Shown here: positions 2,228 to 57,223 of the stretch, piece after piece
How the letters are laid out: every line of letters begins with the position of its first letter
How positions within the stretch are numbered: position 1 is the first letter of the stretch
NCBI RefSeq assembly: GCF_007362955.1
Contig: NZ_CP041696.1
Location: forward strand, 3,410,001 to 3,474,000
Reading direction: 5' to 3'
Length of the DNA stretch: 64,000 nt
Source: Lysinibacillus fusiformis
GTDB taxonomy: Bacteria; Bacillota; Bacilli; Bacillales_A; Planococcaceae
The notes under the pieces: model-generated
Seen by the model: only the letters and a program-made list of their open reading frames with translations
The model's database searches: none
Told to the model about the DNA's origin: nothing
Made by a program: the position numbers and the translations under genes

Positions 2228-3082
2228 TTACAGTTCTTTCTTTTTATTAAAGCTTTGCGTTAAGCGATCAATAATAATGGCGAAAATCACGAGTCCTAAA
2301 CCTGCAACGAAACCATTCCCAACCTGTGTACGTTGCAGCGCTGTTAGTACTTCACGGCCGAGGCCAGGTGCACCAATCATTGAGGCGATAACGACCATCG
2401 AAAGTGATAACATAACTGTTTGGTTAATCCCTGCCATAATAGTTGATTTGGCTAGGGGAATTTCTACTTTAAATAGCTTTTGACTAGACGTACTACCATA
2501 GGAATCAGCAGCTTCGGCTAATTCTTTCGGTACTTGGCGAATCCCTAAATTCGTCATACGAACAGTTGGTGGTAAGGCAAAAATAACAGATGCAAATACG
2601 CCAGGCACGATACCTATACCGAAAAAGGCAACAGCAGGAATTAAATAAACGAAGCCAGGCATCGTTTGCATGAAATCGAGTATCGGTTTAATAATGCTTT
2701 CCGCAACACTTGATTTGGACATGAGGATACCTAATGGAATCCCAATCACAATTGAAATGACACTTGAAAACAGCACGAGTGTAGTGGTTTCCATCAGATG
2801 TGTCCATAAGCCTTGATTATAAATAAATAACAGACCTATTAAAGAAAACGTAGCAAGCCCATACTTTTTGCCAGTTACGAAAAACGCAAATATGACAACA
2901 AGTAATATTAGAATAATTGCAGGAATGCCAATTAATAAATCAGTGACCTGACTCATGAGTAGTTTTCCGGTTTTTTGAATCGCACTAAAGAATACAGAAA
3001 AATTACTCGTCAACCAGTCCATAGCTGATTCTACCCAAGGGGCAAGCGGTAATGTTGGTATATTGTCTAAAAAATTATTCAT
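2228..3082 (-). CDS. opuAB: Glycine betaine ABC transporter permease (OpuAB)
   Basis: A 284-residue polytopic membrane protein of the binding-protein-dependent transport family. The cytoplasmic EAA-type loop ([20 protein letters not shown]) that contacts the ATPase is clear, and the [19 protein letters not shown]-like region matches proline/glycine-betaine permeases. The ATG at 3082 follows a GAGGAGG ribosome site and overlaps the end of opuAA by 8 bp, which indicates coupling. It forms the translocation pore with OpuAA and OpuAC. Confidence 0.92.
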
Positions 3083-4274
3083 GTACTTCGGCCTCCTCAT
3101 TGAACGAAGAAAGTGCTTCAATGACTACGCCTCGGATGAGAACACCGAGTAAACGTTCATCTTTCACTACTGCAATTGGAGTAGGGGAATTATAAATCAT
3201 TCCTAATATATCCTGTAAAAGCATGTCCGGGGGAACAGTCAAAATTTCTGACTGAACAATAGAATGCACGGTTTGCTCATGCCTTTTAGCAGCAGCTAGT
3301 GCATCGTCTGCGGTAATATAACCCTTTAACTTACGATTTTTATCGACAGCCATTAGAATACTCACTGTCTCTTCACGCATTCGTTTAAGCGCTACTGTAG
3401 GTCCATCAAGGTCGACATTAACATATACAGGTCGAACCATAGCGTTTTCAGCAGTTAGTACTTTCGAGCGATCGACATCTTCTACGAATGTTCGGACATA
3501 GTCATTTGCTGGGTTGGTTAGAATTTCTTCACCCGTACCAATTTGAATAATGGAGCCGTCCTTCATAATGGCGATACGGTCACCAATACGTAGTGCTTCA
3601 TTCAAGTCATGGGTGATAAACAAAATTGTTTTTTTCATTGTTTGTTGAAGATCGAGTAATTCATCTTGCATTTCTTTTCGAATAAGAGGATCAAGAGCAG
3701 AGAATGCCTCATCCATTAGTAATATTTCTGGATCATTTGCAAGTGCGCGAGCTAAACCAACACGCTGTTGCATTCCTCCAGATAATTGATTTGGATACTG
3801 GTCTTTATAGGCGAGTAAGCCAGCATTTGCAAGAGCTTGTTCTGCTTTTGTTTTACGTTCTTCTTTTGAGATGCCTCTAATTTCAAGACCGTATTCGGTA
3901 TTTTGTAGTAGTGTACGGTGAGGAAATAAACCGAAGTTTTGGAAAACCATGCTCATTTTATTACGGCGAACGGTTCGTAAAGCATCTTTTCCCATTTTAG
4001 AAATGTTTTCTCCATCGATAAAAATATTTCCGCTTGTTGGTTCAATCAGACGATTTAGTAATCGAATAAGTGTTGATTTACCACTGCCTGATAAACCCAT
4101 GATGACGAAAATTTCACCTTCATTTACGGTGAAACTAGCATCATAAACACCCACGGTTGCACCTGTTTCTTTTAAAATATCTGTTTTGCTCTTCTGTTGC
4201 TTAACGAGTTCTAATGCTTGAGGAATATGTTTTCCAAATACCTTAGAAACATGTTCTACTTTTAGTTTTTCCAT
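3075..4274 (-). CDS. opuAA: Glycine betaine ABC transporter ATP-binding protein with CBS domains (OpuAA)
   Basis: A 399-residue ATPase. Walker A is GLSGSGKST (residues 60-68), the signature is LSGGMQQR, and Walker B is [13 protein letters not shown] with the H-loop FITHD. The C-terminal ~130 residues form the tandem CBS module that senses ionic strength in OpuA-type importers. The length matches OpuAA/ProV proteins. It is the first gene of the opuA operon and sits downstream of a BusR-like regulator on the same strand. Confidence 0.93.
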
Positions 4275-4565: not shown

Positions 4566-4612
4566 AAAAAAACCGCTTAAACGCTGTGATATCAGCGCTT
4601 AAGCGGTTTTTA
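4566..4612. terminator. Terminator of the busR-like gene
   Basis: AACCGCTTAA (4571-4580) pairs with TTAAGCGGTT (4599-4608), extended by CGCT/AGCG, with A and T runs outside. It overlaps the stop codon of the regulator and separates it from opuA on the same strand. Confidence 0.85.
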
Positions 4613-5245
4613 ATTTGGATATAAAAAGCTCTGCACACGAGCTAAGCTTTCGTCATTTCCGATAAAGTAAATAATATCGCCATCTTCAAATGAAAGATAC
4701 GGTCCGGGTGATAATAATAATTCGTTTCCGCGACGAATACCGACAATTGTGCCAGATGTGTTTTGCCAAAAATTTAATTCTTGCAGCGTTTGGTGAATGC
4801 AAGGACTTTCTGCTGTCATTTCAATTTGATAAGGGATAAATGGATTGACGGAGCGGAAATGTTCAGTTCGACTAATGAGTTGTTTTGTTTTTTCCTGTAA
4901 ATTCAACAGTTCATTTTGTTGCTTATGAATACTTGTTAAAAGCTCATTTTGTAGCTCGTGAACGGATTGAACATCATGGAATTGCCGGACAAATCGCGCT
5001 GCTTTTTCATATGATTTAATGAAGACACCACTGCCTTTGGAAGCTTCCACGATTTCTAAATCTTGTAATACAGCAATCGCTCTTCTTGCGGTTTCAGCTG
5101 ATACATTATATTGGCTTGCAAGCGAAGATCTTGCGTATATTTTATCGCCTATTTGATACTTTTTTTCTACAATTTTTGAGGCAAGGTCCACCGCGATTTG
5201 CTGGTATTTTGGCTGCTTCACCTGAACATTTTTTTCTAAGTTCAT
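4610..5245 (-). CDS. busR: GntR-type regulator with RCK_C domain, BusR-like c-di-AMP sensor
   Basis: A 211-residue protein in three parts. Residues ~10-75 form a GntR winged helix (YQQIAVDLASKIVEKKYQIGD, ARSSLASQYNVSAETARRAI). Residues ~85-130 are rich in Gln/Asn/Leu heptads and should form a coiled coil. Residues ~135-211 are a TrkA-C/RCK_C domain (SGTIVGIRRGNELLLSPGP, FEDGDIIYFIG). This architecture and length are those of BusR, which represses glycine-betaine importers when bound to c-di-AMP. The opuA operon lies next on the same strand, matching the known regulon. The symbol is by architecture and context. Confidence 0.82.
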   Translation of the reverse strand: MNLEKNVQVKQPKYQQIAVDLASKIVEKKYQIGDKIYARSSLASQYNVSAETARRAIAVLQDLEIVEASKGSGVFIKSYEKAARFVRQFHDVQSVHELQNELLTSIHKQQNELLNLQEKTKQLISRTEHFRSVNPFIPYQIEMTAESPCIHQTLQELNFWQNTSGTIVGIRRGNELLLSPGPYLSFEDGDIIYFIGNDESLARVQSFLYPN

Positions 5246-5404
5246 TCTAAACTTCCTTTCGTGTCATAACAACTTACCTCAGCTTATTATAGACTAGCCT
5301 GCACAGAAAAAATAGCATCTCCATAAGCTATTAGTATATGATTGAAACGTCTTCTAACAGTTTTCGGTTCATCGAAAATTTTTTCATAGAATAGGAGCTG
5401 ATGT

Positions 5405-5456
5405 TTGACAGTTTTCAGTTATTATTATAAACTAAGTTACGTTATGTAAGTAACGT
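5405..5456 (+). promoter_or_regulatory. Promoter and operator candidate of the flavin-branch operon
   Basis: A perfect -35 TTGACA (5405-5410) is followed by an AT-rich -10 (TATAAA at 5426, or TAAACT at 5428 with 17-bp spacing). Immediately downstream ACGTTA (5439-5444) and TAACGT (5451-5456) form an inverted repeat where a repressor would act. No FMN riboswitch core is present in 5246-5519. Confidence 0.6.
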
Positions 5457-5519
5457 GTGAATACAAGCGCTCAGTTAGCAAAATTGGCTAGCTGTTTACA
5501 ATAGAAAGTTGGAGAAAAT

Positions 5520-6251
5520 ATGACAATTACTACTAAAGTTATGGATATAGTGAAAGACAAAATGGCAATCGTAAAGCAATCTGAAACAGCTAATATTTGT
5601 CTAGTTGGTCCGGTGAAATTACCAATTAAACAAGGTGAATTTTCAGCAACATTTCAATGGTATAACTGGTTAAAAGTTGATGCGAATCTATCAAAAGAAG
5701 AAATAATTGATGGTCTATCCACTGCAAATTTAGCATTTATGCAACAATCATCAGTTCTTGTCTATGGTGATTTTGCACATGCAGATGATGCTTTAATCCG
5801 CATGCACAGTATTTGCCATACGGGTGATATTTTTGGGAGCCAACGCTGTGACTGTGGCTATCAATTACATGAATCCATGAAAATGATTGTAGAGCATGGC
5901 TGCGGTGCAATTTTCTATTTAGCAGATCATGAAGGTCGTGGTATCGGTCTATTCTCGAAATCACTTGCTTATTTATTACAAGAGGAAGGATTAGACACGG
6001 TTGAAGCAAACCATGCACTTGGTTTCCCAGATGATACTCGCTCTTATGAGGATGCCATTTCTGTGTTGGCTGCACTTCGTACGAAGCCTGTAACGCTTAT
6101 TACAAATAATCCGAAGAAGCTGGCAGCATTACAGGAGCACGGTTTAGCTGCAGAAGGACATGTCCCATTATGGGGTGGTTTAACGGAGACGAATAGCTTT
6201 TATTTAAATACAAAAGTAGAAAAATCTGGCCATATGCGTGGAACGAAGTAA
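5520..6251 (+). CDS. GTP cyclohydrolase II (RibA-type, stand-alone)
   Basis: A 243-residue RibA-family protein without a RibB (DHBP synthase) domain. Zinc ligands are Cys99, Cys110 and Cys112 (HSICHTGDIFGSQRCDCG). EGRGIGL, DTVEANHALGF and TNNPKK follow in family order. GTP cyclohydrolase II opens GTP to 2,5-diamino-6-ribosylamino-pyrimidinone phosphate, the first step of riboflavin and of several azapteridine or deazaflavin-like pathways. The loop before EGRG reads YLADH rather than the common YLRQ, and there is a longer N-terminus than in minimal RibA. Its operon contains RibD, a flavoprotein monooxygenase and a HAD phosphatase but no RibB, RibE or RibH, so a specialised role is likely. Confidence 0.88.
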   Translation: MTITTKVMDIVKDKMAIVKQSETANICLVGPVKLPIKQGEFSATFQWYNWLKVDANLSKEEIIDGLSTANLAFMQQSSVLVYGDFAHADDALIRMHSICHTGDIFGSQRCDCGYQLHESMKMIVEHGCGAIFYLADHEGRGIGLFSKSLAYLLQEEGLDTVEANHALGFPDDTRSYEDAISVLAALRTKPVTLITNNPKKLAALQEHGLAAEGHVPLWGGLTETNSFYLNTKVEKSGHMRGTK

Positions 6252-6266
6252 GAGGAGGGTGCGAAG

Positions 6267-7376
6267 ATGACAGCAGATGAAAAATATATGCAATTAGCAC
6301 TTGATTTAGCAGCGAGTGCTAGAGGGAATACAAATCCCAATCCACTTGTAGGGGCTGTCATTGTGAAAGATGGCGTCATTGTGGGGACTGGTTTACACCG
6401 AAAAGCGGGCGAGCCACATGCGGAAGTGCATGCTTTTCGTATGGCTGGAGAACATGCAAAAGGCGCTACACTTTATGTAACACTTGAGCCATGTTCACAT
6501 TACGGTAAAACGCCTCCGTGTGCGAACTTAGTGAAGGAATCACAAGTGAGTCGTGTTGTTGTGGCGATGCAAGATCCAAACCCATCTGTAGCAGGTCGAG
6601 GCATTAAATTGCTACGTGATGCAGGAATTGAAGTAGAGGTTGGTGTCCTAGAAGACCAATCTCGTCGTTTAAACGAACGCTTCATTCACAATATGCTGAC
6701 AAAACGTCCATTTGTGCTTTCAAAATATGCGATGACCTTGGATGGCAAAATTGCTGCACATACTGGCCATTCCAAATGGGTAACAGGTGAGGCTGCACGT
6801 GAGGATGTTCACCATATTCGTCATGAGGTAGATGGCATCTTAGTGGGGGTTGGCACAGTTATCGCTGATAACCCTGCCTTAACAACGAGACTAAAAGAAG
6901 GATACGGCAAAAACCCTGCACGTATTATTATGGATAGTACACTTCGAATACCGCCGCATGCGAATGCTTTAAATGTAGAAGAAGCAAAAACAATTGTTGT
7001 ATGCAGTGAGGGTGTTGAGCAAGAAAAAATCACGGCATTAGAAGCGAAAGGTGTAACCGTCGTACCAGTACGTCGTGAGCGGGAGGGTCTTGTGATTGAC
7101 GAAATGCTTGAAAAGCTTTACTTACTAGGCTTGACAGATATTTTAGTTGAGGGTGGAAGCGCTATAAATGCTTCATTTTTACAAAGTGGTGCCATCAACA
7201 AATATGTCATTTACGTTGCGCCAAAGGTTTTAGGTGGTCGTCTATCACTAACGCCTATTGCTGGTCATAGTCCGACATCTATGGATGAAGCATGGGATGT
7301 GGAATTTGCTTCATTTGACAAAGTAGGTCAAGATTTACGTATTATTGCTTACCCGAAGAAAGGTGAGGAAAAGTGA
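6267..7376 (+). CDS. ribD: Bifunctional pyrimidine deaminase/reductase (RibD)
   Basis: A 369-residue protein with both RibD domains. The N-terminal deaminase has the zinc set His51-Ala-Glu53 and PCSHYGKTPPC with Cys76 and Cys85. The C-terminal reductase has KYAMTLDGKIA, SKWVTGEAAR, DGILVGVGT and VEGGSAINASFL. It would deaminate the GTP cyclohydrolase II product and reduce the ribose side chain to ribityl. A GAGGAGGG ribosome site precedes the ATG, 15 bp behind the previous gene. The stop overlaps the next start by 4 bp (GTGA). Confidence 0.9.
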   Translation: MTADEKYMQLALDLAASARGNTNPNPLVGAVIVKDGVIVGTGLHRKAGEPHAEVHAFRMAGEHAKGATLYVTLEPCSHYGKTPPCANLVKESQVSRVVVAMQDPNPSVAGRGIKLLRDAGIEVEVGVLEDQSRRLNERFIHNMLTKRPFVLSKYAMTLDGKIAAHTGHSKWVTGEAAREDVHHIRHEVDGILVGVGTVIADNPALTTRLKEGYGKNPARIIMDSTLRIPPHANALNVEEAKTIVVCSEGVEQEKITALEAKGVTVVPVRREREGLVIDEMLEKLYLLGLTDILVEGGSAINASFLQSGAINKYVIYVAPKVLGGRLSLTPIAGHSPTSMDEAWDVEFASFDKVGQDLRIIAYPKKGEEK

Positions 7377-8458
7377 ATTTTCAAGCGGATGTTTGTATCG
7401 TTGGGGCCGGACCAAGTGGTGCACTACTCTCGCATTTATTAGCGAAAAAGGGTCTTTCCGTGATATTACTGGAACAAAACGCAGCGCTTGGGCAGGCATT
7501 TCGTGGCGAGCATTTAAACGAAGAGGGCGAGGCAGTTTTAACAAGTCATCATCTTCTTAAAGCTGTCGAAGCTCTTGGCATTTTACGTATGAAAAAGCTA
7601 GAGTATTATGCAAATGGCAGAGCATTTAAAACGATTTTTCCAGATGAAGCTGTTGGTCATTTAGGTATTCATGTGCCACAAGCACATTTACTAAAGGGAA
7701 TACTACAAGAAACACAACAATTTCCACACTTCACTAGCTTCTTAAATACGAAAGTTACAAAACTTATTACTGATCAAGCGGGACGTTTTGTCGGTGTTGT
7801 GGCAACAAAGGATGGCGAAAAAATTGAAATCGTGAGTCAGCTTATCATAGGTGCTGATGGGCGTTACTCTACCATTCGTAAGCAAGCACACATTGACATT
7901 CAGAAGCACAAACATGGCTTTGATTTGCTATGGGCAAAAATTCCTGCACCACAAGGGTGGGAGCCCTCCATTAAAATGGCGTTAATCGGGGATAAACAAT
8001 TGTCACTTTTCACGCAAGCAGGGGGCTTTATTCAAATTGGCTGGAACATTGAGCAAGGCAGTTTTCCGCAGCTCAGAAAACAAGCGTTTACGCCGTTTAT
8101 TAAACAGCTTACTGAAGCGTTTCCTGAGTTAGCTGAAATAGTAATTCACCATATTCAATCGTGGCAAGATTTTGTTTTGCTCGATGTGTTTAGTAGTCAT
8201 TGTGACTGCTGGGGAACAGACGGACTTGTGTTGTTAGGGGATGCGGTTCACACGATGACACCTACTGGAGCATTTGGCTTAAATAGTGCGCTAAAGGATG
8301 CAGATTGTCTTGCGTCGCTGTTAACGAAAGAGACGATTGCACAATTTAACGTACAAGATTTTCAACAAATGCGAGAGCTAGCCGTTGAGGAAGTGTTGGC
8401 GAAGCAAATTGAAAAAGAACAAACCTTTGCATCGAACTTTGTAGACTGGGCCTCTTGA
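7373..8458 (+). CDS. FAD-dependent aromatic-ring-type monooxygenase
   Basis: A 361-residue group A flavoprotein hydroxylase of the PHBH/UbiH fold. The Rossmann motif GAGPSG is at residues 11-16, the DG motif appears in GADGRYSTIRK and the GD motif in GDAVHTMTPTGAFGLNSA. Such enzymes hydroxylate or oxidise aromatic and heterocyclic rings with NAD(P)H and O2. It starts at GTG 7373 overlapping the ribD stop, with AAGGTGAGG as ribosome site. Such an enzyme is not part of ordinary riboflavin synthesis. In this operon it could oxidise a pyrimidine or pteridine intermediate; the substrate is unknown. Confidence 0.85.
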   Translation: MNFQADVCIVGAGPSGALLSHLLAKKGLSVILLEQNAALGQAFRGEHLNEEGEAVLTSHHLLKAVEALGILRMKKLEYYANGRAFKTIFPDEAVGHLGIHVPQAHLLKGILQETQQFPHFTSFLNTKVTKLITDQAGRFVGVVATKDGEKIEIVSQLIIGADGRYSTIRKQAHIDIQKHKHGFDLLWAKIPAPQGWEPSIKMALIGDKQLSLFTQAGGFIQIGWNIEQGSFPQLRKQAFTPFIKQLTEAFPELAEIVIHHIQSWQDFVLLDVFSSHCDCWGTDGLVLLGDAVHTMTPTGAFGLNSALKDADCLASLLTKETIAQFNVQDFQQMRELAVEEVLAKQIEKEQTFASNFVDWAS

Positions 8459-8472
8459 AAGGAAGAAAATAG

Positions 8473-9036
8473 ATGAAATTTGGTTTTGATATAGATGATA
8501 CACTCATAGATTTACGCGCATATGCTTTCGCGCTTTATAATAAAAAACTAGGGAAAAATATTACAATAGATGCCTTTCAAGCATTGCAAAGAGTTGAAAT
8601 TCATGAGCTTTTTGGGTTAACAGATACAGAAGGTTCAGCGATGTGGAATAGTTCATTAGAAGAAATCTATTTTATGGATTGTCCTATTTTTGAGCAAGCA
8701 CTTGAAACGCTTCAAACACTGAATCAGCAGGGACATGACATTTATTATATTACGTCACGTCCAAAACAGTATTGTGCGCAATCGCAGCAATGGATGAGAG
8801 CACAAGGCTTCCCTATCAAAGAGGGACATTTTTTCTGCGGTATGCAAGATGCTGAGAAAGTAGCCATTATCAAAAATCTTGCTTTAGATGTTTATGTAGA
8901 TGATAAACCAGCTGTGCTTGAAACACTGCAAGATATTGAGACGAAAGTGATTCTAAAAAATCAATCCTACAATGAGCATGTGACACTGCCACGTTTGCAT
9001 CATTGGCACGAATTTGACAATATTATTAAAGTATAA
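8473..9036 (+). CDS. HAD-superfamily 5'-nucleotidase-like phosphatase
   Basis: A 187-residue HAD phosphatase of the 5'-deoxyribonucleotidase (NT5C) type. The nucleophile motif is DIDDTLID with Asp6 and Asp8, motif II is YYITSRP, and the acidic motif is VYVDDKP. HAD enzymes supply the missing phosphatase step of riboflavin synthesis (dephosphorylation of the ribitylaminouracil phosphate), and a nucleotidase of this type fits that step here. The gene is 14 bp behind the monooxygenase with an AAAGGAAGA ribosome site and ends the operon at a strong terminator. The substrate is inferred from position only. Confidence 0.75.
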   Translation: MKFGFDIDDTLIDLRAYAFALYNKKLGKNITIDAFQALQRVEIHELFGLTDTEGSAMWNSSLEEIYFMDCPIFEQALETLQTLNQQGHDIYYITSRPKQYCAQSQQWMRAQGFPIKEGHFFCGMQDAEKVAIIKNLALDVYVDDKPAVLETLQDIETKVILKNQSYNEHVTLPRLHHWHEFDNIIKV

Positions 9037-9079
9037 AGGATTGGTGCAACGAAATTCTCGTTGTACCAATCCTTTTTTA
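9034..9079. terminator. Bidirectional terminator
   Basis: AAAGGATTGGTGCAACGA (9036-9053) pairs with TCGTTGTACCAATCCTTT (9058-9075) with one mismatch, followed by T6. It separates the flavin-branch operon from the convergent iclR-type gene. Confidence 0.92.
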
Positions 9080-15971: not shown

Positions 15972-16555
15972 TATGATGTAAATAAAATAACAATGATGCG
16001 ATTTCACATCAAAAATTCGGATTTACCATAGAATCTATCATCAAATTATCCTAATTTACTATTTTCAAATCAAATACACTAGAGATGTAGGATCGTTTCC
16101 TCATCTTTTATCTTCATACAGCAAATGTTTTTTGTATCGAAAGCGTAGCGGCAGATACAGAAGGCTCTCACCTCTGAAGCTGGTGAGATGAAAACCGATG
16201 TGGTTCCTTTTCAGTGGGTGTCCCAACACCTGTTGCTGTCGCTACGCTTTCGCACATCAAACACCTACTGAAATAGAGGAACTCAGTCTAAGAATGCACG
16301 TCCTGTGGCAATTTATCTGTATGACAGCGACACACGACTGAGTGACCAACATCAGGTTGGCCTAAAGCCTCCGGTGGATGTCACGGATTTTGAAAGGAAT
16401 GAATTTAGGACGTTAGCCTAAGTTCGTCGCATCCATGCGACAACGGCTAACTGATCTGCATCGTGCAGGCAAGGTACAATTCAAAATCCGGATGCAATTA
16501 CGCCGAGGCGTAATTGATGAAATTATTTAGTTTATTTTTTGTGATAAGAGGATTT
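15972..16555. repeat. Gene-free stretch of three palindromic elements
   Basis: No gene is seen. Element 1 (16138-16252): perfect 13-bp arms CGAAAGCGTAGCG / CGCTACGCTTTCG. Element 2 (about 16287-16340): CTCAGTC ... GACTGAG. Element 3 (16385-16489): GGATTTTGAA / TTCAAAATCC enclosing GTTAGCC/GGCTAAC and GTCGCAT/ATGCGAC stems. A further hairpin CAATTACGC/GCGTAATTG (16495-16516) abuts the sigma-54 promoter. Element 1 is related to the unit of the tandem array at 28245-29167, and the end of element 3 recurs degraded near 23715-23775. Confidence 0.75.
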
Positions 16556-25467: not shown

Positions 25468-26100
25468 TTAGATAAAACGAGCAATATCTTCTAACGGCAA
25501 ACGTGATGAACCATATGCTGGTGTTGCAGCTTTACCGATAGCAATCAGGACGACAGGGAAGATATGCGATGGTAGTTCGAATCTTTCAGCAAATTTCACC
25601 TTATCAAATCCACCCATTGTCACTGTATCATAGCCTTTTTCTTTTGCAATCAACATGAGTTGCATGGAAATTAGACCTGCATCAAATGTTGCAATGTTCT
25701 TTCTAACCTCTAATGGGGCAGATGGGTAAGTATGAAGTGTATTTTGAATCATCAAATTCTTTTGCGCTTCATCCATATGTCCTTCTACTACATTTTGCGT
25801 ATAAATCTGTTCAACTTGTTTATACATTTCGGCATTACCTAATACAGCAATGACAGCAGATGAAGTTTCAACCTGTGCTTGATTGTTGGCAATTGCACGT
25901 AGCTCAGTTTTTGTTGCGTCATCTTGAATCACAAGAAATCTCCATGCTTGAAGATTACTAGAAGAAGGTGCACTTGTAGCTTCTTTTAGGATTTCTTCAA
26001 GATCTACTTGGGGGATTTTGAAAGTGGGGTCATAGACACGAACTGATTTTCTTTCTTGCATAATTGTATATAATTTTGAATCCGTTTTAGTTGTTGACAT
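25468..26100 (-). CDS. Nitroreductase-family NAD(P)H:FMN oxidoreductase
   Basis: A 210-residue nitroreductase. ERKSVRVYDP is the FMN-phosphate loop, ATSAPSSSNLQAWRFLV follows, and TVTMGGFDKVKFAERF and PVVLIAIGKA are near the C-terminus (YdgI/YodC pattern). Such enzymes reduce quinones, nitroaromatics or azo compounds. GGAGG lies just before the ATG at 26100; the longer reading to 26172 would run through the operator. It is divergent from a YodB-like repressor and shares an operator with it. Confidence 0.88.
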   Translation of the reverse strand: MSTTKTDSKLYTIMQERKSVRVYDPTFKIPQVDLEEILKEATSAPSSSNLQAWRFLVIQDDATKTELRAIANNQAQVETSSAVIAVLGNAEMYKQVEQIYTQNVVEGHMDEAQKNLMIQNTLHTYPSAPLEVRKNIATFDAGLISMQLMLIAKEKGYDTVTMGGFDKVKFAERFELPSHIFPVVLIAIGKAATPAYGSSRLPLEDIARFI

Positions 26101-26113
26101 AATTTCCTCCTTA

Positions 26114-26163
26114 AAACTTACTAATGGTAAGTTGATAATTAGAATCTTACCATTAGTAAGTTT
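26114..26163. promoter_or_regulatory. HxlR-type double operator in the divergent promoter region
   Basis: An 18-bp arm at 26114-26131 is repeated as its perfect reverse complement at 26146-26163. Each arm itself contains the palindrome CTTAC-N5-GTAAG. Two adjacent identical palindromes, one facing each gene, is what a dimeric autoregulating HxlR repressor would use. Confidence 0.82.
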
Positions 26164-26232
26164 GTCCGTCAAATAAAAAATATTTTTATGTTACAATAGA
26201 GGTAAAAGAATTCACAGGCGGGAGGTTATTTT

Positions 26233-26571
26233 ATGACTCAACCGAATTGTTCACATATTTGTAGTAGCTACCACCAAGCGATTGAATTTATAGGGAAACG
26301 CTGGATGGGTATGATTATTTATACCTTGTTACCAGGGCCGCAAAGATATTATGAAATTCACGCAGCTATCCCTGGGATTTCTGATCGGTTGTTAACAGAG
26401 CGCTTAAATGAGCTTGTAAATGCGGGACTCATCAAAAAAAAATTCATTGATTCCTCCATAAAAAAAGTAGAATATGAGCTGACACCCAATGGCTTAGCGT
26501 TTCAAGAAGTCATTCAGTCAATTCAAAAATGGATAGATTTATGTGATTTTGAAAAGACAACAAAGAATTAA
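26233..26571 (+). CDS. HxlR-family regulator, YodB-like redox sensor
   Basis: A 112-residue winged-helix protein: HQAIEFIGKRWMGMIIYTLL, GISDRLLTERLNELVNAGLI, YELTPNGLAF. Cysteines are at positions 6, 10 and 104. In YodB of Bacillus subtilis, Cys6 and C-terminal cysteines sense quinones and diamide and control quinone and nitro reductases, and the same positions are filled here. The divergent nitroreductase fits that role. A GGGAGG ribosome site precedes the ATG. Redox sensing is inferred from the residue positions. Confidence 0.86.
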   Translation: MTQPNCSHICSSYHQAIEFIGKRWMGMIIYTLLPGPQRYYEIHAAIPGISDRLLTERLNELVNAGLIKKKFIDSSIKKVEYELTPNGLAFQEVIQSIQKWIDLCDFEKTTKN

Positions 26572-50726: not shown

Positions 50727-51340
50727 TGGATTTACATGATGTAATAGATTTTATCGAACATTATGGTTATTTTGCATTGTTTTTTAGCTTATGGCTCGGT
50801 ATCGTCGGCATGCCCATTCCCGATGAAATGATAGTAATGAGTGGTGGATTTTTGTCGTCCTTAGAAAAAATGGGTATCATACCTGCCTTTATCTTAACTT
50901 ACTTAGGCGTTGTATCAGGGCTGTCATTAGGGTATGTACTCGGGAAAGTGTTTGGACTTAAAGTTCTCGACAAACTGGTGAAGAAGAACAAAGCTAAATA
51001 CCTTATAAAATCAAAGGACATGATCAGCAAGTACGGGCAATTTGCTTTAGTGATAAGTTATTTTATTCCAGTAGTTAGGCACATTATTCCTTATTTAGTT
51101 GGCATGAATAACATGTCATTTAAAATTTATGCATTGTATTCATACACAGCGGGCTTTATCTGGACGATGATTTATTTTGTTCTTGGTTTTTTCTTTGGAA
51201 AACATATCGAACACATTGGAAAATTGGCAACGCAATATGGTTTATATTTTGGGGTAATCGTGATGATTGTGTGGATTATTTATTATTGTTTTAAACGAAA
51301 ATTAGCGGAAAGGTTAAAAATTAAGAGAAGTAATGGTTAA
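50726..51340 (+). CDS. DedA family membrane protein
   Basis: A 204-residue DedA protein. Signatures are GIVGMPIPDEMIVMSGGFLS near the N-terminus and SYFIPVVRHIIPYLVGMNNM with the conserved Pro-x-x-Arg. Four to five membrane segments are present. DedA proteins have been linked to flipping of C55-P carrier and of phospholipids, and to resistance to cationic peptides. Co-transcribed with a lipid-methyltransferase-like gene and a two-component system, which suggests envelope-stress function. Confidence 0.88.
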   Translation: MDLHDVIDFIEHYGYFALFFSLWLGIVGMPIPDEMIVMSGGFLSSLEKMGIIPAFILTYLGVVSGLSLGYVLGKVFGLKVLDKLVKKNKAKYLIKSKDMISKYGQFALVISYFIPVVRHIIPYLVGMNNMSFKIYALYSYTAGFIWTMIYFVLGFFFGKHIEHIGKLATQYGLYFGVIVMIVWIIYYCFKRKLAERLKIKRSNG

Positions 51341-56334: not shown

Positions 56335-57223
56335 TGTAACGAAAAGATTTAAGCATAAAACGGCTGTCAATCATTTTTCGATGGTCATTGAAGAGAATGA
56401 ATGTGTGGGATTAATCGGACCGAATGGGGCAGGAAAGTCAACGTTAATTCAAATCATTGCAGATATTCTCAATGCGGATGAGGGGAGTATTGTTCTTGAT
56501 GGACAAAATATAGCCATGAAGAAAAATCAAATTGGCTATTTACCTCAATACCCCAACTTCTACTCTTGGATGACTGCATATGAGACATTACTATTTATGG
56601 GAACACTGTCCGGCATTTCTAAAAACCAATTACAGAAAGATATTCCGCTAATTTTAAAAAAGGTAGGGCTATCGAAAGAAGCACAGTCAAAAGTCGGAGC
56701 ATTTTCAGGTGGCATGAAGCAGCGCTTAGGCATTGCACAAGCGTTGCTACATAAGCCAACCTTAATTATCATGGATGAACCTGTATCTGCCTTAGATCCA
56801 ATAGGACGAAGAGAAGTGTTGAATTTACTCAAAGAGATAAAAAATGAAACGACGATTTTATTGTCTACCCATATATTGGGGGATGCGGAAGAAATCTGTG
56901 AACGTTTTGTTGTCATCAAAGATGGACAGAAAATTGAAGACGCTACTAAAGAGCAATTGCTTCATCGAAATCAAGAAGCAGCTATTTATTTAGTAGTACA
57001 AAAAGATGATTTCAAATGGCTCGAAAAAGTTGAGCATTTACCTTATGTAAAGAAAGTTGAGAACTATGAAGAGGGTTTTAAAATCCATGTCAATCAACTT
57101 CATGTAGATGCCTATCAATTATTACAAAATGCTATGGATCAAAAAATAGCGATTACAAAGTTTGAAATAGGTGTTAAAGAGAGTCTAGAAGAAACATTTT
57201 TGGCATTGGTGGTGGATGTATGA
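56309..57223 (+). CDS. ABC transporter ATP-binding protein (YxlF-like)
   Basis: A 304-residue ATPase: Walker A GPNGAGKST, signature FSGGMKQRLGIAQ, Walker B LIIMDEPVSALDP, H-loop STHIL. The length and C-terminal tail are of the ABC-2 drug/lantibiotic exporter class. The ATG at 56309 lies within the end of the previous gene with AAAGGATG in front. It overlaps the permease start by 4 bp. Confidence 0.9.
   Translation: MNVRLEITNVTKRFKHKTAVNHFSMVIEENECVGLIGPNGAGKSTLIQIIADILNADEGSIVLDGQNIAMKKNQIGYLPQYPNFYSWMTAYETLLFMGTLSGISKNQLQKDIPLILKKVGLSKEAQSKVGAFSGGMKQRLGIAQALLHKPTLIIMDEPVSALDPIGRREVLNLLKEIKNETTILLSTHILGDAEEICERFVVIKDGQKIEDATKEQLLHRNQEAAIYLVVQKDDFKWLEKVEHLPYVKKVENYEEGFKIHVNQLHVDAYQLLQNAMDQKIAITKFEIGVKESLEETFLALVVDV

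Follow-up and report, generated by a model that had tools for sequence, protein, structure and literature searches.

A detached GTP arm of riboflavin synthesis in Lysinibacillus fusiformis and its relatives, with a possible second use of 5-amino-6-ribitylaminouracil

Background

Bacteria of the Bacillus subtilis type carry a ribD-E-BA-H operon for riboflavin synthesis under the control of a flavin mononucleotide (FMN) riboswitch. In a stretch of 64,000 nucleotides of the Lysinibacillus fusiformis genome (contig NZ_CP041696.1, positions 3,410,001 to 3,474,000; hereafter "the window"), genes for GTP cyclohydrolase II (GCHII) and RibD form an operon with those for a predicted flavin adenine dinucleotide (FAD) monooxygenase (FMO) and a HAD phosphatase. 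What do these four genes make, and why do they stand apart? An earlier note on this DNA took them for a branch off riboflavin synthesis, leading to a ribitylaminouracil-derived or oxidised product.

The explanation that we regard as probable is that the four genes are a detached GTP arm of riboflavin synthesis under the control of an operator that is not a riboswitch, that 5-amino-6-ribitylaminouracil (5-A-RU) has a second use, and that the FMO oxidises a compound of the 5-A-RU type. GCHII would open GTP, RibD would carry out deamination and then reduction, and the NT5C-type HAD phosphatase would take off the phosphate to give 5-A-RU. This compound would feed an FMN-riboswitch-controlled ribE-ribB-ribH operon elsewhere in the genome, and would have a second use besides. 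Instead of an FMN riboswitch, a repressor that is probably a member of the HxlR/DUF24 family would control the operon at a TTAC-N5-GTAA site just past the -10 element. Where the FMO is present, it would most likely oxidise 5-A-RU or a close derivative, by hydroxylating either the ring or the 5-amino group. We use "arm" for a GCHII-RibD(-FMO)-HAD operon that is detached from ribH.

Riboflavin genes in the genome

The four genes all lie on the forward strand of the window. A GCHII of divergent type, with an N-terminal extension of ~75 amino acids (5520..6251), is recognised by profile match and alignment, and RibD, a bifunctional deaminase/reductase (6267..7376), by profile match and structure alignment. 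The FMO, an optional member of p-hydroxybenzoate hydroxylase (PHBH) type with a GTG start (7373..8458), and the HAD phosphatase, of NT5C (pyrimidine 5'-nucleotidase) type (8473..9036), are each assigned by profile and predicted fold. Successive genes are 15 bp apart, overlap by 4 bp and are 14 bp apart. A promoter, TTGACA-17-TAAACT (5405..5433, forward strand), is unchanged in all 13 Lysinibacillus-type upstream regions aligned; promoter-like matches over the whole window are at chance level (19 vs 14.5 expected, sd 3.6). Downstream of the HAD gene is an intrinsic terminator (9035..9078, forward strand), consisting of a long hairpin (9035-9075) and a T run to 9078, with a folding energy of -27.5 kcal/mol and a z-score of -10.7.

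Of the 22 related loci fetched, 20 share the order GCHII-RibD-FMO-HAD, including one from Ureibacillus terrenus (L026) in which the FMO gene (7995-9075) is frameshifted near an A run or contains a sequencing error. The other two, from Paenibacillus, have the order FMO-GCHII-RibD and no HAD gene. Because the order is kept across related loci, and families and signals are confirmed, the cluster is far beyond chance. Coordinates and family matches thus bear out the reading frames, spacing, promoter and terminator that the earlier note had described. Its observation that the operon has no FMN riboswitch also holds: none is found in the window at gathering score, and no Rfam RNA matches the leader (5230-5560) at E-values up to 1.

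The genome that carries the window is a single contig of 4.97 Mb. A genome search with PF00925 finds one GCHII in all, the one at 5520-6251. The corresponding search with PF01872 finds the RibD of the operon and one open reading frame (ORF) of 177 amino acids, which by eye resembles small proteins of dihydrofolate-reductase type and does not have the length of a full RibD. Some 250 kb away, RibE, a RibB of 217 amino acids and RibH are encoded in one operon, which is preceded by two tandem FMN riboswitches and contains neither ribA nor ribD. The genome contains three FMN riboswitches, none of them at the four-gene operon, and the third precedes an ORF that by eye resembles a riboflavin transporter. 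The two tandem riboswitches before ribE-ribB-ribH (L002, 3178-3572) are closely alike.

Since the only GCHII and the only full RibD reside in the operon, and ribE-ribB-ribH elsewhere, riboflavin can be made only if the operon supplies the pyrimidine arm. Judged by gene content, the operon is the GTP arm of riboflavin synthesis in this genome and not a side branch. A separate specialised branch was considered for this genome and rejected, as the searches turned up neither a second GCHII nor a second full RibD. The earlier note had looked for a separate ribDEAH operon with an FMN riboswitch; ribE-ribB-ribH with riboswitches is there, and ribA and ribD are missing from it. Its "branch" is therefore wrong for this genome, although an additional use is indicated by genomes without ribB and ribH, with purifying selection in a sister pair of them, by genomes in which a canonical RibD accompanies the arm or its RibD, and by the operator common to the arm and 4 of the 8 unlinked FMO genes read (see below). 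Likewise, its proposed product survives in part: 5-A-RU supply, for riboflavin, is retained, and an additional, possibly oxidised product is likely. The strict version of that note, a toxoflavin-like pathway apart from riboflavin, is very unlikely. The joint presence of GCHII, RibD and an oxygenase is in its favour, as are six genomes that have the arm but neither ribB nor ribH, and a canonical RibD in addition to the detached one in G030, G053, G138 and P. senegalimassiliensis. However, this genome has ribE-ribB-ribH with FMN riboswitches, yet no second GCHII or full RibD was found in it.

Survey of the family

The earlier note had also suggested a search for this gene neighbourhood across Bacillaceae. 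A single set of 151 family genomes was searched for FMO, GCHII, RibD and RibH. One RibD copy is present in 141 genomes, two in 3 and none in 7. In 34 of the 151, RibD occurs solely within 5 kb of RibH, which is the position that we call canonical; all 34 have a long RibBA, and none has the FMO. RibD lies away from RibH in 110 genomes, which comprise 101 with a single RibD and with RibH elsewhere, 6 without RibH, and 3 (G030, G053 and G138) in which a second, canonical RibD is found beside RibH. The divergent GCHII is the only one in 80 of these 110, by the measure that no GCHII match has E < 1e-60. Two species from outside the family also have the FMO operon: P. senegalimassiliensis carries a canonical RibD and GCHII in addition to those of the operon, and P. 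sanguinis an additional GCHII but no RibD other than that of the operon.

The FMO gene adjoins ribD in 54 of the 110 genomes with a detached RibD, is located elsewhere in 13 and is absent from 43. It is thus present in 67 of 110 such genomes vs 0 of the 41 others (Fisher p 1.5e-13, uncorrected for shared ancestry). We chose and read 36 arm loci from the survey genomes: 13 have GCHII-RibD-FMO-HAD, 22 have GCHII-RibD-HAD, and one (G053) has RibD alone within the 6 kb fetched. HAD follows in each of the other 35. With the FMO in 13 of these loci and missing from 22, the core consists of GCHII-RibD-HAD, and an FMO gene is optionally inserted between RibD and HAD. One genome (G048) has a 63-residue ribD remnant ahead of ribE, and this fossil points to an old layout that was replaced by the detached arm.

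In a RibD tree, RibD proteins of arms, with the exception of that of G053, fall into two strong clades (100/99 and 100/100) apart from the canonical ones, in a tree whose deep branches are long and weakly supported. Among named relatives, nearest to the RibD of the window is that of Lysinibacillus sphaericus OT4b.31, followed by that of L. parviboronicapiens. The five genomes of genus g5 that were read contain the second arm type and a solo FMO gene, so the FMO also occurs with the other arm type. (Nine Lysinibacillus loci were left out of the FMO tree.) Among six solo FMO loci inspected by eye, no neighbouring gene is common to different genera, and therefore these neighbourhoods give no substrate.

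Several related arrangements were seen. Solitary divergent GCHII copies occur in P. asahii (L045), G022 (L095) and G091 (L109), and G022 also has a GCHII-HAD pair without RibD (L096, 4756-6082). Seven genomes (G024, G046, G060, G062, G064, G065 and G110) have neither GCHII nor RibD; G064 still has RibH. A methyltransferase-like ORF resides 3 kb downstream of the Paenibacillus operon, past a gene on the opposite strand.

The arm without ribB and ribH

Six genomes (G093, G160, G106, G121, G098 and G108) contain GCHII and RibD and lack both RibH and RibB. The same search that failed to find RibB in these six did find it in G142, G145, G149 and G000. G108 is a metagenome-assembled genome that is 8% contaminated and has a second GCHII contig of foreign appearance, and for this reason five of the six are counted as reliable. 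That contig (L034) carries a canonical GCHII and, by eye, looks like contamination of the Kurthia equi assembly from another bacterium. Single-contig assemblies are available for G093, G160 and G106. All four genes of the operon are present in G093 and G160, where the FMO frame is intact, whereas G106, G121 and G098 have kept GCHII-RibD-HAD and have no FMO. As three of the five lack the FMO, the retained function must be independent of it. The genomes span three genera (g5, g8 and g14), so at least three losses of ribB and ribH are likely.

G106 and G121 are sisters in the RibD tree (support 100/100). Their three arm genes differ by 41 synonymous and 7 nonsynonymous changes, vs 152 nonsynonymous changes expected without selection, and are thus under strong purifying selection. 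Divergence of the pair is low, with synonymous divergence (dS) of 0.03-0.15; some dS values in the pairwise run were saturated. If loss of ribB and ribH preceded the split of G106 and G121, as parsimony suggests, this result supports a function of the arm apart from riboflavin. Retention of the arm in relatives without ribB and ribH hints at a second, undescribed use of the intermediate.

One such use could be supply of deazaflavin (F420), because 5-A-RU is a substrate of FO synthase. This explanation of the arm in the genomes without ribB and ribH is almost certainly wrong: CofH (TIGR03551) scores above cut-off in none of the 151 genomes, and the four weak matches below cut-off include none of the six.

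A conserved operator

An operator-like palindrome, TTAC-N5-GTAA (5437..5449), lies just 3' of the -10 element and was recognised through motif counts across loci. The promoter followed by this palindrome is unchanged across the 13 aligned Lysinibacillus-type loci. Among non-redundant loci (with short ORFs, GCHII loci in which no RibD was called and 20 loci that were uncertain or near-duplicates set aside), the motif is found upstream of 29 of 34 GCHII-led operons, of both FMO-led operons in Paenibacillus and of 4 of the 6 solo FMO genes, but of 0 of 11 canonical ribD genes and 0 of 5 split ribE genes. Its background rate is 0.0077 per window scanned, and it ranks first among 3328 inverted-repeat shapes, the runner-up being present in 9 of 34. 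When near-duplicates are included, the motif precedes 48 of 63 script-picked leading genes and 4 of 8 solo FMO genes, the latter being those read, out of 13 genomes in which the FMO is unlinked. In this fuller count, starts were taken mechanically as the longest ORF, some Lysinibacillus loci were missed, and two operon-internal FMO genes (L085 and L122) were wrongly taken as leading genes. The GCHII copies of L095, L096 and L109 mentioned above lack the motif.

Regulators of the DUF24 family such as YodB and CatR sense quinones and use an operator of the form TTAC-N5-GTAA, and the site at the arm resembles theirs. Each of the two Paenibacillus loci has an HxlR-family gene that is transcribed divergently from the FMO-led operon, and the site lies between the two. 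The HxlR protein of L024 also matches the redox regulators RrpB/RrpA, below cut-offs. Of the Lysinibacillus loci, L007 has an HxlR gene 3 kb downstream of the operon. The window itself contains an HxlR gene (26233-26571) divergent from a nitroreductase-like gene (region 25468-26571), the best NCBIfam match of which is below its cut-off. This pair, which offers an internal comparison for the motif, flanks two TTAC-N5-GTAA sites (26118-26159), if the nitroreductase-like gene starts at an in-frame ATG near 26100. Altogether the window has five matches to the motif vs 1.28 expected, and those at 50732-50744 and 57038-57050 lie in coding sequence and are probably due to chance. These features suggest that the arm is probably controlled by an HxlR protein through this putative operator.

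A redox- or electrophile-sensing HxlR repressor also allows a more tentative idea, which we find possible but do not favour, that 5-A-RU is itself the end product. It would often be oxidised by the FMO and would act as a reactive scavenger, pigment or signal, even in bacteria that do not synthesise riboflavin.

The four enzymes

The GCHII matches PF00925 at 154.7 bits and passes the cut-off of the subfamily model NF001591 (191.4 vs 148). Residues C99, C110, C112, Y133 and R140 are unchanged in 14 aligned sequences, two of them canonical, and the protein also aligns with structure 2bz0; we take the three cysteines to be zinc ligands, and the tyrosine and arginine to be catalytic. RibD reaches the TIGR00326 equivalog level over residues 8-358 (395 vs 156.35 bits) and matches the solved RibD structure 2b3z at 366 bits.

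The FMO matches PF01494 at 122.4 bits. Residues G11, G13, G16, D162-G163 and G289-D290, which presumably correspond to the GxGxxG, DG and GD motifs of group A flavin monooxygenases, are unchanged in 13 orthologues. Its predicted model has a confidence score (pLDDT) of 86.4, with residues 291-299 under 50. The nearest fold is that of a Bacillus niacini FMO (8urc and 8uiu, and 8urd with 2,6-dihydroxypyridine), with 25-26% identity over aligned residues, and the next is PqsL (6sw2, solved with 2-aminobenzoylacetate), with 18-19%; at such identities the substrate of neither is transferable. By its motifs and PHBH-type fold, the protein is predicted to be a hydroxylase of group A. 5-A-RU combines an oxygenated nitrogen ring with an aromatic amine, features that are seen in the ligands of these nearest structures, and this resemblance of a modelled enzyme is suggestive only.

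The HAD protein exceeds the cut-off for PF06941 (NT5C; 49.4 vs 24.8 bits). D6 and D8, which we take to be the DxD nucleophile motif, are unchanged in 11 sequences. A sequence search of the PDB found nothing up to an E-value of 0.1, but the model (pLDDT 93.9) is nearest in fold to a deoxyribonucleotidase-like protein and to human 5'(3')-deoxyribonucleotidases. We propose this enzyme as a candidate dedicated 5-amino-6-ribitylaminouracil-5'-phosphate phosphatase. PMC12051542 describes a field in search of a dedicated phosphatase for this step, calls the known HAD enzymes (B. subtilis, Escherichia coli YigB and Arabidopsis) nonspecific, and assigns the Aquifex enzyme to the histidine phosphatase family, not to HAD. 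The protein of the operon shares the superfamily and the proposed step with the known HAD phosphatases, but it is of NT5C type and is encoded in one operon with RibD, as would be expected of a dedicated enzyme.

The earlier note knew of no described pathway with this gene set, and this agrees with our searches of open-access full-text literature, in which the four-gene set was not recognised among the papers listed, those on toxoflavin and azapteridine pathways included. A precedent of a different kind is the synthesis of vicine and convicine in faba bean, which begins with the GCHII domain of VC1/RIBA1 (PMC12202586). There, as proposed here, a riboflavin GCHII feeds a second pyrimidine product, although the system is from a plant and in our case the product is only proposed. 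Flavophos, also considered, is a lumazine synthase inhibitor (PMC12871164) and not a relative.

Weighing the explanation

A simpler explanation is plain riboflavin supply. The FMO would then be a passenger with an unrelated substrate, and the genomes without ribB and ribH would be relics about to lose the arm. This fits the sole copies of GCHII and RibD in L. fusiformis, the loss or relocation of the FMO in many genomes, its absence from three of the five reliable genomes without ribB and ribH, and the low divergence of G106 and G121, which allows a recent loss. It does not account for the lack of the FMO in all 41 genomes without a detached arm, for the operator of the arm at 4 of the 8 unlinked FMO genes read, or for the survival of an intact arm in ribB- and ribH-less genomes of three genera (g14, g5 and g8), with purifying selection in one pair. 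We therefore regard plain supply as rather unlikely, and prefer the detached arm with a second use of 5-A-RU.

What the sequences show directly is the single copies, the order of the genes, the conserved operator, the co-occurrence, and the persistence of the arm where ribB and ribH are missing; the substrates of the phosphatase and the oxygenase, the family of the repressor and the second use are deduced from these. Several observations count against the preferred explanation. The GCHII is below the TIGR00505 ribA equivalog cut-off (172.6 vs 205.85 bits). The FMO appears dispensable: it is absent from 43 of 110 genomes with a detached RibD, stops interrupt 2 of the 67 copies counted, and two genomes of one genus (G149 and G103) keep GCHII, RibD and HAD with what by eye are decayed FMO pieces in between. 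An FMO product cannot explain retention in the three FMO-less genomes among the five. The statistic for co-occurrence of FMO and arm ignores ancestry, and the selection result would carry little weight if G106 and G121 lost ribB and ribH very recently or separately. The operator is missing at 5 of 34 GCHII-led operons and at 4 of 8 solo FMO genes, and in those Lysinibacillus loci that were read the operon has no HxlR gene next to it, with no genome-wide search for HxlR genes having been made.

Neighbouring features

A GntR plus TrkA_C regulator lies beside what by eye is a glycine-betaine-type ABC ATPase upstream of the operon (4610-5245 and 3075-4274); we presume this regulator architecture to be BusR-like. 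This divergent arrangement with the operon holds in Lysinibacillus loci but not in L021 and L023-L027. The window also contains a Guanidine-I riboswitch (230-327) ahead of two small membrane genes, by eye SMR-type exporters, and a pair of adjoining Bacillaceae-1 RNAs (16272-16469).

Conclusions

The GCHII and RibD chemistry of the arm is that of the ribD-E-BA-H operon, and as the GTP arm of riboflavin synthesis it is ordinary. Unlike that operon, the arm is detached, has its own candidate phosphatase, sometimes has an extra, partly co-regulated oxygenase, has TTAC-N5-GTAA in place of an FMN riboswitch, and can be retained alone. One arm of riboflavin synthesis has thus been cut loose in many genomes of the family, has come under another operator, and persists in several genomes without ribB and ribH. 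In its HAD gene the operon offers a candidate for the dedicated phosphatase that has long been sought, and it suggests a second fate of 5-A-RU that can be tested. Intermediates of the riboflavin pathway, including 5-A-RU, are reported as precursors of agonists of mucosal-associated invariant T (MAIT) cells (PMC12240317). If 5-A-RU is itself the end product, riboflavin auxotrophs of the family would still make a MAIT-cell ligand precursor.

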